A DNA stretch of 64,000 nt. Origin: Streptomyces sp. Y2F8-2. Lineage in GTDB: Bacteria > Actinomycetota > Actinomycetes > Streptomycetales > Streptomycetaceae. The notes under the pieces were generated by a model. That model saw nothing but the letters and a program-made list of their open reading frames with translations. It made no database searches and was not told the DNA's origin. A program made the translations under genes and the position numbers. Where the stretch lies: assembly GCF_014905555.1 (NCBI RefSeq), contig NZ_BNGS01000002.1, positions 248,001-312,000 on the forward strand, in the 5' to 3' direction. Each line of letters starts with the position of its first letter. Positions within the stretch are counted from its first letter, which is position 1. Of the stretch, positions 25,796-32,659 are shown in pieces.

Positions 25796-26093
25796 CTGGC
25801 GCTCCCCTCGTCGCGTCCGCGCCGCCCATTTCTCGCATTGCGCGACAACAAGGATCAAGCGCGACGAGTCGCCCGTGAAACGGGCCGCGGAAGGTATGCG
25901 CCGGTCGGAGCGCTACGGCGCACCACCGCGCCCCGGGGAAAACCACTCGAAACGGTGAGCGCGAGAATCAGCCCGTCGACTGACGGCGCGCGCCCCGGGG
26001 AGCGGAACACCAGTTCCGAGCCCCCGGAGCGCACAGGGAGTCATGGCGGTGCGAACGGGCTCCCGCCGCTCGCGCCCGATGCCGTACGCCCCG
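25796..26093. other. 298-bp spacer before the MFS gene
   Basis: No gene is supported. Near the MFS start is a comparatively AT-rich stretch (25830-25860) with TTGCGCGACAA and, 20 bases away, AAGCGCGACGA, which could belong to an operator, but no symmetrical site is convincing. Nothing else was recognised. Confidence 0.5.
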
Positions 26094-27659: not shown

Positions 27660-27671
27660 GAACGTGTGTTC
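27660..27671. promoter_or_regulatory. LexA-type SOS box before the radical SAM gene
   Basis: GAACGTGTGTTC matches the Gram-positive/actinobacterial LexA pattern GAAC-N4-GTTC exactly. It overlaps the promoter: TATTCT at 27672-27677 is a good -10, so LexA bound at the box would sit between -35 and -10. A much weaker GAACCTGCGACC lies at 27627-27638. Confidence 0.7.
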
Positions 27672-27705
27672 TATTCTGTGGCGCAGTGCTATCGAGGAGG
27701 CGCCC

Positions 27706-28752
27706 ATGCGCTGGGATCATCTGGCCGAGAACCCCGCCGCGGCCCGGGGCGCCGCGCTGTTCGACGCCGACGCGGTGACCACCCGCACCTTCGACACCCC
27801 GGAATTCCGCGGCATCACCTTCCACGAGGTGCGGGGGCGTTCGATCGTGAACCGGGTGCCGGGCGCCTCCCGCATGCCCTTCGAGTGGACGGTCAACCCC
27901 TACCGGGGGTGCACACACGCGTGCGTGTACTGCTTCGCCCGCAAGACGCACAGCTACCTCGACCTCGACACGGGGCTCGGCTTCGACACCCAGATCGTGG
28001 TGAAGGTCAACGCCCCCGAACTGCTGCGCGCCCACCTCGGCTCCCCCCGCTGGCGCGGCGAGCACATCGCGATGGGAACCAACGTCGACTGCTACCAGCG
28101 GGCCGAGGGCCGCTACCGGTTGATGCCGGGCATCATCGCGGCACTACGCGACCACGCGAACCCCTTCTCCATCCTCACCAAGGGCACCCTGATCCTGCGC
28201 GACCTCGACCTGCTGAAGCAGGCCGCCGAGGTCACCGACGTCGGCATCTCCGTCTCCGTCGGCTTCACCGACCAGGAGCTGTGGCGCACCGTCGAACCGG
28301 GCACCCCCGCCCCGGAGCGCCGGCTGGACGTCGTGCGCACGCTCGGCGAGCACGGCATCGGCTGCGGTGTCCTGATGGCCCCCGTGATCCCCTTCCTCAG
28401 CGACCACCCGGCCCAGCTCCGCGCCACCGTACGGGCGATCGCCGCCTCCGGGGCGACCTCGGTGACCCCGCTGGTGCTGCATCTGCGTCCGGGCGCGCGC
28501 GAATGGTTCATGGCCTGGCTGGAGCGCCGGCATCCGTACCTCGTACGCCGTTACGAACGGCTGTACGCGGACGGCGCCTACGCCCCGAAGTGGTACCAGC
28601 GCCGGATCACCGGCCAGGTGCACGAACTGGCCCAGGAGTACGGCATCGGCCCGACGCGCCCCGGGATGCCACGCAGGATCCGCCGATCCGAGCCCGAACC
28701 CGTCGCGGCGGAACCCACGGCGACCGGACCGACACAGCTCTCGCTCCTGTGA
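27706..28752 (+). CDS. Rv2578c-family radical SAM protein (SplB-related)
   Basis: 348 residues. The radical SAM cluster motif is CTHACVYC (Cys69, Cys73, Cys76) in NPYRGCTHACVYCFARKTH, the opening seen in the spore-photoproduct-lyase-like COG1533 group. Further family blocks are ELLRAHLGSPRWRGEHIAMGTNVDCYQ, PFSILTKGTLILRD and VGISVSVGFTD. The C-terminus ends QLSLL (344-348) after a Pro/Glu-rich linker; that pentapeptide resembles the bacterial beta-clamp binding motif QL(S/D)LF. ATG 27706 has GGAGG at perfect spacing. A LexA-type box lies in the promoter, so induction by DNA damage is expected. A role in DNA lesion repair at the replication clamp is an inference; no substrate is known. Confidence 0.85.
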   Translation: MRWDHLAENPAAARGAALFDADAVTTRTFDTPEFRGITFHEVRGRSIVNRVPGASRMPFEWTVNPYRGCTHACVYCFARKTHSYLDLDTGLGFDTQIVVKVNAPELLRAHLGSPRWRGEHIAMGTNVDCYQRAEGRYRLMPGIIAALRDHANPFSILTKGTLILRDLDLLKQAAEVTDVGISVSVGFTDQELWRTVEPGTPAPERRLDVVRTLGEHGIGCGVLMAPVIPFLSDHPAQLRATVRAIAASGATSVTPLVLHLRPGAREWFMAWLERRHPYLVRRYERLYADGAYAPKWYQRRITGQVHELAQEYGIGPTRPGMPRRIRRSEPEPVAAEPTATGPTQLSLL

Positions 28753-28772
28753 GCGACGCGGATACGAGCGGC
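28711..28772 (+). repeat. 3' end of the radical SAM gene, duplicated at 32598-32659
   Basis: Sixty-two bases covering the last 13 codons, the stop and 20 bases beyond match 32598-32659 at all but about ten positions, same orientation. Shared blocks include TCGCTCCTGTGA and ATACGAGCGGC. The other copy encodes PTVTGPLQLSLL and stop, against PTATGPTQLSLL here. Confidence 0.8.
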
Positions 28773-29321
28773 CCCTGTGGGTGCAGTGAGGCCGGCCACA
28801 CCCAAGAGCGCTTTGTCGAGCTCACGTGGATCGACCAGCGCACCCTTCAGCGCATCGAGCGCGACGCGAGCGACCCCGGTGAGGCCACCTGCTCCACATC
28901 TTGACGCCCTCGGGATGCGCGTCTCCGTCCTCGTCGACTCGGGAAATCCCACCCGTCCACCACTGGCGAAGCGAACGGGCGGGGCCGTATACGGGAGCGC
29001 CATCGGCGAGCGTGGACCACCGGCGTGCCGATGTGACCCGGCTTGTGCGCATCGATCGTGCGGGCCTCAGCCGACGTGAACCCGGCCCGGGCGAGCAGAC
29101 GTTCCCAGACGGCCGGCCGGTAGCAAGACGATGGTCTCGATCACCCTGCGAGGCCAAGGGCTCCTCCGCGCCGGGATGCGCAGAGGATCGAGACGGCCGT
29201 CTGCTCGCGGTCATCCGAGAACCTGACCCGAACTTGCGGGTCACCGTGCCCGCTTGACCTGCGCGGACCCGTGGGCCAGCTCTCCTCGAGCAGGCGTGCG
29301 CAGCGTCCGTATGCTCCGCGC
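28773..29321. other. Spacer with degenerate sequence after the radical SAM gene
   Basis: About 550 bp without an intact gene. On the minus strand a fragment (28960-29125) reads like the end of a methyltransferase. The rest shows no ribosome binding site linked to an open frame. Next to the TPR gene, TATGCT at 29310-29315, seven bases before ATG 29322, could be the -10 of a near-leaderless promoter. Confidence 0.55.
28960..29125 (-). pseudogene. C-terminal remnant resembling a SAM-dependent methyltransferase
   Basis: In one minus-strand frame the translation runs AVWERLLARAGFTSAEARTI then DAHKPGHIGTPVVHARR. A Trp followed by LL-x-x-AGF is the usual start of the last helix and strand of small-molecule methyltransferases. 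Upstream the frame is closed by a stop (TGA near 29140), downstream it dissolves into Arg-rich sequence, and there is no start or ribosome site. It is best read as a decayed fragment; the family is a guess from this short stretch. Confidence 0.3.
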
Positions 29322-30158
29322 ATGAAATTCTTCCGGCCGCGCGGCCGAATCGACGCCGGGCAGAGGACGAGATCGCCCTTGGCACCGGTCATGGCCCTGT
29401 ACGAAGCCGGGCGCTATGCCGAGGCGGAGGCCGAGGCCCGCGCCGTGGCCGCGGCCCGATCCCGGCCGCGCGACGACCCGCACGCGCCGCTGGCGCTGAG
29501 CATCGCCGCTCTCGCGGCGAGCGGCCAGGGCCACCACGCCGAGGCCCTCGCCACATACGACGCAGTTCTGCCGGTCTTCGGCAGGGTCTTCGGCGCCGAA
29601 CACCCGCTGACCCTGAAACTGCGCTCGGACCGCGCCCAGACGGCGCTGAGCGCGCTTGACCAGCACGCCGAATGCGAGGCAGAGTGCGCGGCCGTTGCCC
29701 GGGCCGCGACCCGCGGCACGGGGCCGGAGATGCCGCTCATAGCGGCGGCCGCCCAGAACGGACTGATCTACGCCCTCAACGCACAGGGCCGCCACCCGGA
29801 GGCTGAAGCGCTCGCCCGCGAGGCGCTCACCGCCCCTCGCATACCGGACCGGTTCACCCTGGTCCTGCGGCTCGGCCTGGCCCGCAGCCTCAACGGGCAG
29901 GCCCGCCACGAGGAGGCTCTCGCCGAGGCGGAGCGCGCCGACGAGCTGCATCGCAGCCTGCCCGAGGGGCAGCGCCGGCCGGAAACCGGCGCCGTCGAAC
30001 TGGCCGCGGCCACCGCCCTCCTGGGGCTGGGGCGCGGTACCGAGGCCCGCACCCGGGCCGCGGCTGCGCACGACGCCTGCCTGGCCGCCTTCGGCCGGGA
30101 CCACCGCCGCACCGCGGAGGCGCGAGCGCTGCTCGACCGCATCATCAACGGCGCTTGA
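29322..30158 (+). CDS. Tetratricopeptide-repeat protein
   Basis: 278 residues rich in Ala and Arg with repeated helix pairs of TPR type: ALYEAGRYAEAEAEARAVAA, LAASGQGHHAEALATYDAVLP, YALNAQGRHPEAEALAREAL, RSLNGQARHEEALAEAERADEL and LLGLGRGTEARTRAAAAHDA, each with the small-residue/Gly-(K/R/H)-x-x-EA pattern. The last resembles the kinesin-light-chain-like Fxxc TPRs that follow GxxH(P/R)x(T) as in FGAEHPLTLKL and FGRDHRRTAEA. Cytoplasmic, no signal peptide. A protein-binding scaffold; partner unknown. ATG 29322 fits the first repeat and lies just after a possible -10, suggesting a short leader. Part of the accessory segment 28773-32597. Confidence 0.78.
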   Translation: MKFFRPRGRIDAGQRTRSPLAPVMALYEAGRYAEAEAEARAVAAARSRPRDDPHAPLALSIAALAASGQGHHAEALATYDAVLPVFGRVFGAEHPLTLKLRSDRAQTALSALDQHAECEAECAAVARAATRGTGPEMPLIAAAAQNGLIYALNAQGRHPEAEALAREALTAPRIPDRFTLVLRLGLARSLNGQARHEEALAEAERADELHRSLPEGQRRPETGAVELAAATALLGLGRGTEARTRAAAAHDACLAAFGRDHRRTAEARALLDRIINGA

Positions 30159-30410: not shown

Positions 30411-31925
30411 TCAGTGCAGGTTCTGCACCGCCGGGTCGGTGAAGCCGACGGCGAAGACCGTGCGCAGGGACGAGGTCGTCGAGCCGTTGTAGCCGTAGCA
30501 GGCGTCCAGCGTGCTCGTCGGCGTGTGCTCGTCGTACCTCGGGTCGCTCGGGCTGTAGCAGATGCCCTCGGTCAGCCCCCACAGCTCGTCGACCTGGGTC
30601 GCGTCGAGCTTCGGCCAGTAGCTCAGGGCCTGCGGCGGCCCGGCCGCCCAGTTGCCGCCGGCCGCGCAGGTCGTCCCGGCCCGGGTGTCGCCGATCCACG
30701 TGTGGGAGTACACGCCGGGCTGGGTGCCGCAGCCCTTGTGGAAGGCGAAGTTCAGCACGCCCTGGTCGTCGGTCCAGGTCATGCCGCCCTGCAGGCCCCG
30801 GTAGCGGGAGGCCGCGTAGGCGTCCTGGATGACGGTCTTGCCACTGGACATGTTGAGCAGCCCCGGGTAGGTCGAGGAGCTCGTCGGGTTGAGCTGGTAG
30901 CGCACCACGCGGCCGCCGTCGACGCCGCCGTACCACTCGCCGGTGACCAGCTTGTACGGGCTGCCGCCGGTCTTGTCGAGGGAGAGCCAGGAGTAGCAGA
31001 GGTGGTCGGGGTCAAGGGTGCCGGCGTTCGCGTCGGAGTCGCACGCGGTGGGTGTGCCCGACTGCTGGTAGTAGTGCACCTCGGGCAGCACGTACGGGTA
31101 GCCGCACGCGCTGGAGCGGCCGCCGTTGATGCCGTAGGTGCTGACGCCGGAGCCGTAGTCGTCGACCTTGGCGAGCTTGTTGATGTCGAACACCCGGATG
31201 CCGTGTGCGGTGTCCGTGACGTAGATGTAGTTCGAGTACCAGACGATGCCACCGCCATGGCCCGTGACGAACTTGAAGTTCGACGCGCTCGACGAGGTGC
31301 TGGTCGGCTCGGCGAGCAGGACGTGGCGGTACTTGCCGGTGTCGCGGTCGATGAAGGTGAGCTTCAGCAGGTTGTCCGTCTTGCAGCCGCTGGAGGTCTC
31401 CCCGGACAGCGTCTCGTAGTGCCAGGAGACCGCGGCGACGTGGTCTCCCTGGATCGCTCCGTCGCTGCCGTCGGCCGTACCGGTGGTGCTCAGGCCCTGC
31501 GGGTACCAGTGCTGGGTGGTGTCGTCGCCGTGCGCCGACGACCAGCACCAGGCGACCTTGGTGGTCACCGGCGGCAGCGCCTTGGTCTCGTTGCCCGAGC
31601 AGGTTCGCATCGAGCGCAGGTTCAGCCAGGAGTCGGTGGCACCCGACGAGTTCGTGGTGTAGTTCGTGGTGATGACGTCCGTCAGACTGGCGTGGTCCGT
31701 CAGGTAGTTGTTGTAGAGGTTGTTCGTCGCAGCGACGTAACTGGTGTCCGTCATCTTGAACTGGTCGCCGCTGAGCGTCAGCTGCGTCACCGTGGGTGTG
31801 TCCGCCGCCGTCGCGGGCTGTCCCGCCAGCCCGGCGAACAGGGCGGCCGCGGCCGCGACCACGGCCAGCCGCCTGAATCTTCCTATGGGCGCCACGCGCA
31901 CCTTCCATGAAGCGAACCGAGGCAT
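30411..31925 (-). CDS. Secreted protein of unknown function
   Basis: 504 residues with a long actinobacterial signal peptide (RFRRLAVVAAAAALFAGLAG, likely cleaved after QPATAA near residue 41). The mature part is rich in Thr, Ser, Gly, Tyr and Trp with about ten Cys, and contains propeller-like segments: SNYIYVTDTAHGIRVFDINKL, LCYSWLSLDKTGG and GDHVAAVSWHYETL. It may be a beta-propeller but no catalytic motif is recognised. ATG 31925 has only a weak purine stretch upstream. It is divergent from the small secreted-protein gene at 32125 with 199 bp between, so the two may be co-regulated. Homologues in Streptomyces are, as far as I know, annotated hypothetical. Confidence 0.7.
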   Translation of the reverse strand: MPRFASWKVRVAPIGRFRRLAVVAAAAALFAGLAGQPATAADTPTVTQLTLSGDQFKMTDTSYVAATNNLYNNYLTDHASLTDVITTNYTTNSSGATDSWLNLRSMRTCSGNETKALPPVTTKVAWCWSSAHGDDTTQHWYPQGLSTTGTADGSDGAIQGDHVAAVSWHYETLSGETSSGCKTDNLLKLTFIDRDTGKYRHVLLAEPTSTSSSASNFKFVTGHGGGIVWYSNYIYVTDTAHGIRVFDINKLAKVDDYGSGVSTYGINGGRSSACGYPYVLPEVHYYQQSGTPTACDSDANAGTLDPDHLCYSWLSLDKTGGSPYKLVTGEWYGGVDGGRVVRYQLNPTSSSTYPGLLNMSSGKTVIQDAYAASRYRGLQGGMTWTDDQGVLNFAFHKGCGTQPGVYSHTWIGDTRAGTTCAAGGNWAAGPPQALSYWPKLDATQVDELWGLTEGICYSPSDPRYDEHTPTSTLDACYGYNGSTTSSLRTVFAVGFTDPAVQNLH

Positions 31926-32124
31926 GTCTCGTCTGGGGCATGCCAACCTGCAGAGCGCATAGAGCATAGGCGAGGCGTGCGGAAGAGCACGGCACGCAGG
32001 GGGCGTTCGACCCGGAATCGGTGGTGGGCCACGGGGCCCCCGGTATGGCCTGTTTGACACTCGTTGCACTCACATCACTTCCCCTATACCTCGTCATGAC
32101 CAATGACCAGAAGGGGGAACACTC

Positions 32125-32508
32125 ATGAAATCGATCAATACGACTGGAAGAGTCGGCAGGATCCGCGCGGCGACGGCCGCACTGGCGGCGACGGGCGCAC
32201 TGTTGGCGGGCGGAACCGTCACAGCTCGGGCAGCGGATCAGAGCGCCACAGCGACCTGCTCCTACCCCTACGTCTGCTTCATCAAGAACGGAACCGTCAT
32301 CGGCCGGTTCAAGGACGTGACGTCGGGCTGGCAGGCCCTGCCGTCGAAGCCGAGTGCACCGCTCAGCGTGGTGAACACCCGGCACGACGACGTGGCGTAC
32401 ATCCGCTGGGTGGGCGGCACCACCGCGTGCCTCCCGCCGCAGAGCACGTTCAGCGTCTCCGGCGGACAGCTCGACGCCGTGCGCATTTCCAGCTCGGCGA
32501 CCTGCTGA
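32125..32508 (+). CDS. Small secreted Cys-containing protein
   Basis: 127 residues. The signal peptide (RIRAATAALAATGALLAGG, cleavage near TARA-AD) leaves a mature protein of about 88 residues with four Cys (CSYPYVC, TACLP and the C-terminal Cys), suggesting two disulfides. The mature part has alternating beta-like segments (CFIKNGTVIGRFKDVTSGWQ, DDVAYIRWVGG). Size, secretion and disulfides recall peptidase-inhibitor-like proteins of Streptomyces, but no specific family is recognised. AGGGGGAAC upstream of ATG 32125 is a strong ribosome site, and a good terminator follows. Confidence 0.72.
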   Translation: MKSINTTGRVGRIRAATAALAATGALLAGGTVTARAADQSATATCSYPYVCFIKNGTVIGRFKDVTSGWQALPSKPSAPLSVVNTRHDDVAYIRWVGGTTACLPPQSTFSVSGGQLDAVRISSSATC

Positions 32509-32547: not shown

Positions 32548-32597
32548 TCCTTGGCGGTCGGGTGAGCTGCCGGGTCGGCCCGAGCCTGTGCCGGGGG

Positions 32598-32659
32598 GAC
32601 CCCACGGTGACCGGCCCGCTGCAGCTGTCGCTCCTGTGATCGACGCGCATACGAGCGGC
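32598..32659 (+). pseudogene. Duplicated 3'-end fragment of the radical SAM gene
   Basis: Reads GDPTVTGPLQLSLL and stop, then continues to match the sequence downstream of the intact gene's stop for another 20 bases (compare 28711-28772). Nothing upstream of 32598 resembles the gene, so this is a bare 3' end. Because the similarity crosses the stop codon, it reflects DNA duplication or replaced flanks, not convergent protein tails. Confidence 0.7.

Follow-up and report, generated by a model that had tools for sequence, protein, structure and literature searches.

An Rv2578c-family radical SAM gene of Streptomyces with a conserved LexA box and a clamp-type C-terminal peptide

Published SOS regulons repeatedly contain a gene that is left unexplained as a 'radical SAM' or 'photolyase' entry, and the locus described here raises the question of what its product might do after DNA damage and where it might act. 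The gene lies in a stretch of 64,000 nucleotides from Streptomyces sp. Y2F8-2 (contig NZ_BNGS01000002.1, positions 248,001 to 312,000 of the forward strand), hereafter called the window, within a genome of 8.57 Mb that carries a single copy of dnaN. An initial annotation had read the product as a damage-induced, clamp-recruited radical SAM repair enzyme, with a LexA box in front of the gene and a clamp-type peptide at the end of the protein. Rv2578c itself is linked to LexA in M. tuberculosis.

SOS control of the radical SAM gene is not new, since it has already been published (PMC9380542, PMC7739468). The Streptomyces radical SAM protein vnz_31145 has a fold change of 19.97 in mitomycin C RNA-seq and a value of 1.31 in LexA ChIP (PMC9380542). 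SVEN_6313, located at 6.89 Mb, is listed in PMC12924846 (Table 1) as the Rv2578c-family member of S. venezuelae, and SCO6481 is given in that paper as the orthologue in S. coelicolor. Judging from position and annotation, vnz_31145 and SVEN_6313 are likely the same gene, and hence the orthologue of ours, which does not amount to proof. The core Gram-positive SOS regulon includes a radical SAM protein (PMC7739468), the SOS networks of Bacteroidetes include splB (PMC8565304), and the recA-dependent genes of M. tuberculosis include a 'DNA repair photolyase' (PMC8151990). Loss of the orthologue had no clear fitness effect in PMC12924846, which terms the link to repair speculative; the words 'SOS', 'LexA' and 'mitomycin' are absent from its main text. 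Our literature search for the radical SAM, SplB or Rv2578c family together with the sliding clamp found no description of a clamp tail.

Gene product, orthologue sample and LexA box

The window sequence translates from the ATG at 27706 to a stop codon at 28750–28752, giving a product of 348 residues whose nearest records are from Streptomyces. The product belongs to the Rv2578c family, with 525.9 bits against NF038135 (cut-off 430), and to the radical SAM superfamily, with 48.1 bits against PF04055 (gathering score 29.5), while its 237.2 bits against the PA0069 family model NF033668 remain below the cut-off of 360. The cysteines 69, 73 and 76, already pointed out in the initial annotation together with the likeness to Rv2578c, are the only invariant ones both in an alignment of 33 sequences from the family and in a broader one of 31 relatives. 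Ten further residues (D128, Y130, Q131, E134, T158, K159, R165, D166, E197 and R206, in window numbering) are invariant or at least 90% conserved across the 31 aligned sequences and may be regarded as active-site candidates on that basis. The features of the locus are collected in Table 1.

Table 1. Features of the radical SAM locus and of the adjoining insert (window coordinates)
Feature	Position	Strand	Remarks
LexA/SOS box GAACGTGTGTTC	27660..27671	+	exact palindromic core; conserved in orthologues
Putative -10 element TATTCT	27672..27677	+	sequence reading; directly adjoins the LexA box
Putative ribosome-binding site GAGGAGG	27694..27700	+	sequence reading; ATG 5 nt downstream
Rv2578c-family radical SAM protein, 348 aa	27706..28752	+	matches to NF038135 and Pfam Radical_SAM
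CxxxCxxC [4Fe-4S]/SAM motif, Cys69, Cys73, Cys76	27910..27933	+	invariant in both alignments
Flexible Pro/Glu/Arg/Ala linker, about residues 318–343	28657..28734	+	low identity, variable length
C-terminal clamp-type peptide QLSLL	28735..28749	+	residues 344–348; conserved in orthologues
66-nt direct repeat, 85%	28707–28772 and 32594–32659		flanks the insert of about 3.8 kb; spans last codons and stop
TPR protein, insert cargo	29271–30158		
551-aa frame, insert cargo	30411–32069	minus	no Pfam match
127-aa frame, insert cargo	32125–32508		no Pfam match

A search of 296 genomes of the class gave a match at E ≤ 1e-40 in 130, with 119 over the cut-off. The orthologues were drawn from 30 loci of this search, 80 Streptomyces loci and 80 further chosen stretches, and after extraction the set held 186 orthologues in 17 families, with four paralogues from family f17 kept separate. 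As 106 of the 186 are from Streptomyces, the source genome's own locus (L029) included, the rows are not independent. One protein is present twice (L021 and L108); without the duplicate, the tail and box counts given below become 157/185 and 153/184. An extra stretch of the size of an intein is found within the barrel at L006, L020, L024 and other loci of families f19, f37, f36 and f9; such stretches are common among the orthologues from outside Streptomyces, and NF038136 is the model for intein-bearing members.

The exact GAAC-N4-GTTC box reported initially is confirmed as GAACGTGTGTTC, 46 nt upstream of the ATG. The TATTCT hexamer reported with it is also present, but it adjoins the box and does not overlap it as had been stated; a sigma-70 scan called no consensus pair at this position. 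The pattern occurs 104 times genome-wide, against 27 sites for a control pattern, and twice in the window (shuffle mean, 0.45). Since 8 of 100 shuffles reach at least two window sites, chance counts alone are weak evidence for the box, and conservation was used instead. The other match in the window lies at 26005–26016 and reads GAACACCAGTTC.

The box at 27660 is significant because it is conserved across orthologues. In the region from -150 to +30 of the gene start (starts assigned in this analysis), the exact pattern was found in 154 of 185 actinobacterial orthologues, one of the 186 loci being left out for want of upstream DNA, whereas dinucleotide shuffles gave a mean of 0.56 and a maximum of 3 (50 shuffles). 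The exact box is present in 92/106 Streptomyces loci and in 62/79 loci elsewhere, and a box with at least seven of the eight core bases in 180/185, with at least one such member in each of the 17 sampled families; the conservation that the initial annotation had asked about is thereby established. Its position is steady, at about -46 in Streptomyces and, for the majority of loci from other families, between -21 and -23. Among the 92 Streptomyces sequences, which were picked for the exact box, GATCAAG on its 5' side and TATTCTG on its 3' side are conserved, and GAGGAGG is present in the upstream consensus. As positive controls, the source genome's own lexA and recA genes carry the boxes TCGAACGTGTGTTTGG and TCGAACATCCATTCTT, respectively, the former with a spacer identical to that of GAACGTGTGTTC; both agree with the S. 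venezuelae lexA-2 and recA boxes listed in PMC9380542. The box given for vnz_31145 in the same paper, TCGACCGTTCGCTC, differs from the conserved one and was found at none of 263 loci. By its conserved upstream box, the gene satisfies the sequence criterion for membership of the LexA/SOS regulon.

C-terminal peptide and an insert at the 3' end

The C-terminus of the window protein reads ...EPEPVAAEPTATGPTQLSLL, so that QLSLL occupies residues 344–348 behind a linker rich in Pro, Glu and Arg, much as had been annotated. The pattern Q-x-x-L-[FLIMV] occurs within the last 10 residues of 158/186 orthologues. Shuffling the last 35 residues gave a mean of 0.6 and a maximum of 4 (200 shuffles), shuffling the last 12 a mean of 5.1 and a maximum of 12, and the pattern occurs in 4 of the 2755 remaining frames, 150 aa or longer, of the same loci, non-coding frames among them. 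This strict tail is found in 103/106 Streptomyces proteins and 55/80 from other families, with at least one case in 12 of the 17 families, that is, 11 besides Streptomyces. When only [LM][FLIMVY] is required among the four terminal residues, 70/80 proteins from outside Streptomyces qualify versus 46/1187 background frames, although one of the 70, L170 (RHRLVA), can hardly be called a tail. Many of the 28 proteins that miss the strict pattern have degenerate ends such as PALTLF, DPSALF, PADRLF or QLALPGFG; in family f36, the Gln is absent from 9 of 12 members and ..LF alone remains. No recognizable tail peptide is seen in L158, L169 and L170, and the one at the end of L084 is altered.

Among the 106 Streptomyces proteins, pairwise identity reaches 98% for Gln at -5, 96% for Leu at -4 and 94% for Leu at -2, whereas position -3 is Thr or Ser and position -1 is Leu, Ile or Met, with one exception each. 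Pairs with the same tail residue use differing codons in about 44–63% of cases, and the linker positions -30 to -9 show only 10–30% pairwise identity (gaps not counted). Since the residues are kept while synonymous codons vary and the linker diverges, selection holds the peptide at the protein level, and the tail is thus maintained beyond neutral expectation, as the initial annotation had proposed to check. The variants found outside Streptomyces are QDALF, QPTLF or ..LF, and QLTLI and QLRLI are also among the changes seen; the bacterial clamp consensus, of the QL(S/D)LF type, accommodates these as well as QLSLL. Measured against this consensus, the sequence data support a clamp-type peptide under selection. 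The pentapeptide is followed by one to five residues in seven orthologues (e.g., QLSLFDQHPR and QQALFEPPA) and, in L020, by seven residues beyond QGTLF (QGTLFDPSATAT).

The four f17 paralogues (L187–L190), which fall below the family cut-off, all carry TCGAATGCGTGTTCTA, with seven of the eight core bases, at varying distance from their assigned starts, and they have an RQL[AT]LV tail.

About 3.8 kb separate the radical SAM gene from the next region matched in Streptomyces relatives, and this segment is unmatched in 80/80 of them. In 76 of the 80, the first match beyond 32500 is delayed by at most about 400 bp relative to an insert-free arrangement; 12 of these 76 have it 230 bp or more too early, so that more is missing there. 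Both copies of the direct repeat that flanks the segment read QLSLL-stop, and the pattern QL[ST]L[LIMF]-stop occurs just twice in the genome, in the radical SAM gene and at 32622–32639. Chance was rejected as the origin of the latter match, given its position within the repeat of the gene's 3' end. It looks as if the insert integrated at the 3' end of the gene, at an att-like site, and restored that end with QLSLL kept. The attB of the Samy phage is reported within the same gene (PMC12924846). Pfam revealed no integrase in the three insert frames scanned, and no downstream repeat of this type was seen in 189 loci tested, the flanks being limited and our own short locus included. As for the wider neighbourhood, the 52 largest frames flanking 26 loci were scanned, some of these frames being surely non-coding; no repair theme emerged among the 25 Pfam families listed out of 77. 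The RecF/RecN/SMC N-terminal domain was matched in two cases, alongside ABC transporter matches in three.

Relatives beyond Actinobacteria

Twenty-one plasmid-borne relatives were taken in. Ten belong to the PA0069 type, nine from Alphaproteobacteria and one from Aeromonas; all seven of these ten that were scanned exceed the NF033668 cut-off, and L250–L252 were assigned by alignment alone. The PA0069 members found include L245 from Sinorhizobium meliloti. Their termini follow Q-x-x-[LM]-[FL] in 10/10 cases and the strict pattern in 9/10 (QLSLF, QLRLL, QLSLL twice, QLTMF, QGELF, QLRLF twice, QLTLF and QYSLF). The alphaproteobacterial LexA box is GTTC-N7-GTTC, and it is found upstream of seven of the nine alphaproteobacterial genes (shuffle mean, 0.11; maximum, 2; 300 shuffles). 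The single Aeromonas gene carries a gamma-type box, CTGTATATATAAACAG (shuffle rate, 0.005), so that eight of the ten PA0069-type relatives have a LexA box of their own class. The Paracoccus protein is 41% identical over 252 residues and aligns only to residues 29–277 of the window protein, so that the barrel is common to both and the region after it is not; the end peptide nevertheless recurs.

Two actinobacterial plasmid members end in QEPLF (Arthrobacter) and QESLF (Tsukamurella); no GAAC-N4-GTTC was found in the scanned stretch before either match. A relative from Gemmatirosa ends in QLSLGI. Of the distant COG1533-type relatives, seven were read to the end and one has the strict motif, the clostridial Roseburia protein L253 (QQSLFD, with one residue beyond it); L259 was excluded for an early stop. 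The Clostridia Acetoanaerobium (EQLSFF) and Monoglobus (EQLGF) have near-motif ends (L254 and L247), and L255–L258, from Bacilli and Bacteroidota, have no clamp-type tail. On a Runella plasmid (L258, 1453–3567), the coding region of the distant radical SAM relative runs into the start of a gene for a UvrD-type helicase. A search for viral relatives returned one edge-cut locus with the 33-sequence family alignment and none with the Shinella protein. Among phage relatives, L264 was read to its end and has no tail, L249 runs off its contig, and L265, encoded on an unverified human-faecal phage scaffold, ends in the clamp-like QMSLFE.

Proposed function and comparison with known systems

We consider it probable that the gene encodes a radical SAM enzyme that is induced in the SOS response, recruited by the sliding clamp and active on damaged DNA, with clamp binding, DNA substrate and chemistry all inferred. 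The conserved box and tail lend support to the reading first given in the initial annotation, and so does their recurrence in PA0069-type Proteobacteria with other LexA boxes. The annotation's own condition for refutation at sequence level, orthologues without the tail or the LexA box, was checked and not fulfilled. According to this model, LexA bound to the box would block the promoter until DNA damage led to RecA-driven cleavage of LexA and released it. The product would be a radical SAM barrel with a [4Fe-4S] cluster on the cysteine triad and a flexible tail ending in a clamp-binding QLSLL, and through this peptide the enzyme would bind DnaN where replication has stalled or left gaps. There, a 5'-deoxyadenosyl radical may attack a damaged base or nucleotide, direct reversal being the most likely outcome, as far as can be inferred.

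That box and tail are due to chance or to mere common ancestry is hardly credible. The predominance of Streptomyces in the sample and the abundance of the box pattern in the genome leave some room for it, but the tail codons vary while the residues hold, strict tails occur in the 11 other families counted above, boxes with at least seven core bases in all 16 non-Streptomyces families, and Proteobacteria combine the tail with other LexA boxes. It is quite unlikely that the terminal peptide serves as a degron, or as a ligand of a protease or PDZ-type partner, that limits or places the SOS product. Most members do have a hydrophobic C-terminus at the very end and SOS proteins are often short-lived, yet such a role would not account for the near-identical Gln at -5, nor for the substitutions QDALF, QPTLF and QLRLI, which resemble clamp motifs and are of the kind also seen in NucS; and the eight members in which the peptide is not strictly terminal speak against a C-terminal degron.

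A further alternative keeps the SOS control and lets the clamp merely position the enzyme near replication, its substrate being a nucleotide, RNA or protein and not DNA. Radical SAM chemistry is broad enough for this and the flanking frames lack a repair theme; moreover, an AlphaFold2 model (41 Streptomyces sequences), too poor to be used (mean pLDDT, 53.9), gave no PDB match at E ≤ 0.001, and its first matches include PFL-activating enzyme, lipoyl synthase, transaldolase and viperin. We nevertheless regard it as unlikely: damage control and a clamp-type peptide are paired in Actinobacteria and in Proteobacteria, and SplB-like radical SAM genes belong to SOS networks in further groups as well (PMC8565304, PMC3765255, PMC7739468). 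That the protein is a true spore photoproduct lyase (SPL) seems very unlikely. SPL chains make up all five solved relatives found by a profile search of the PDB, but only weakly (best E, 0.068), and the four NCBIfam matches of the window protein up to E 0.01 include no SPL model; the 'SplB-like' label of the initial annotation expresses a resemblance only. SPL requires a further Cys, outside the cluster motif, as hydrogen donor; the absence of any invariant Cys beyond the triad in the 33- and 31-sequence alignments argues against this mechanism. Members also occur in Arthrobacter and Tsukamurella, which make no endospores. The gene is annotated as SplB in some strains, and yet identity to SPL is reported as 17.6%, with an RMSD over 4 Å (PMC12924846). 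As judged from its sequence, the window protein is not a spore photoproduct lyase.

If the SOS-induced, clamp-recruited repair enzyme is the right reading, the conserved peptide would place its work at the replication clamp and would link radical chemistry with replication-coupled repair. Deleting the last five codons would separate recruitment from catalysis, and the function of a family spread over Actinobacteria, with kin in Proteobacteria, becomes directly testable in laboratory strains of Streptomyces. It is also possible, though we put this forward only tentatively, that Rv2578c and PA0069 proteins, together with certain clostridial kin, belong to one class of SOS-induced, clamp-tethered radical SAM enzymes which spans phyla and directly reverses, at replication sites, a DNA lesion other than the spore photoproduct, which would be a general repair pathway not yet described.

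Among known systems, the Rv2578c family is the closest: the window product is a member, with a full-length match over the cut-off, and the SOS box is common to the sampled members; the 317 positions of the NF038135 model stop before the linker and tail. The PA0069 family shares a homologous barrel, a terminal clamp-type peptide and LexA boxes of its own class, and differs in the region between barrel and tail and in a family threshold that the window protein does not reach. SplB has in common with it the radical SAM barrel, the CxxxCxxC motif and an assumed role in DNA repair, but the window protein has neither an SPL family match nor a further invariant Cys. Tails of comparable sequence are found in other proteins. 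Of 30 Y-family polymerase matches, five carry QLSLG, LQLSLD, QLLLG or HQLTF within the last 45 residues and the other 25 none. NucS ends in ..LF in 15/15 proteins from 15 of the sampled genomes (one weak second match, below the cut-off, was excluded), and its tails vary in the same way as those of the radical SAM proteins (EYRLF, NPTLF and ELTLF). The clamp motif of Streptomyces NucS is KLRLF, and its activity is stimulated by the clamp (PMC11109965). The actinobacterial EndoMS/NucS is an unrelated nuclease that cleaves mismatches without radical chemistry (PMC11109965), but it offers the parallel of a DNA repair enzyme with an equally degenerate C-terminal clamp motif.
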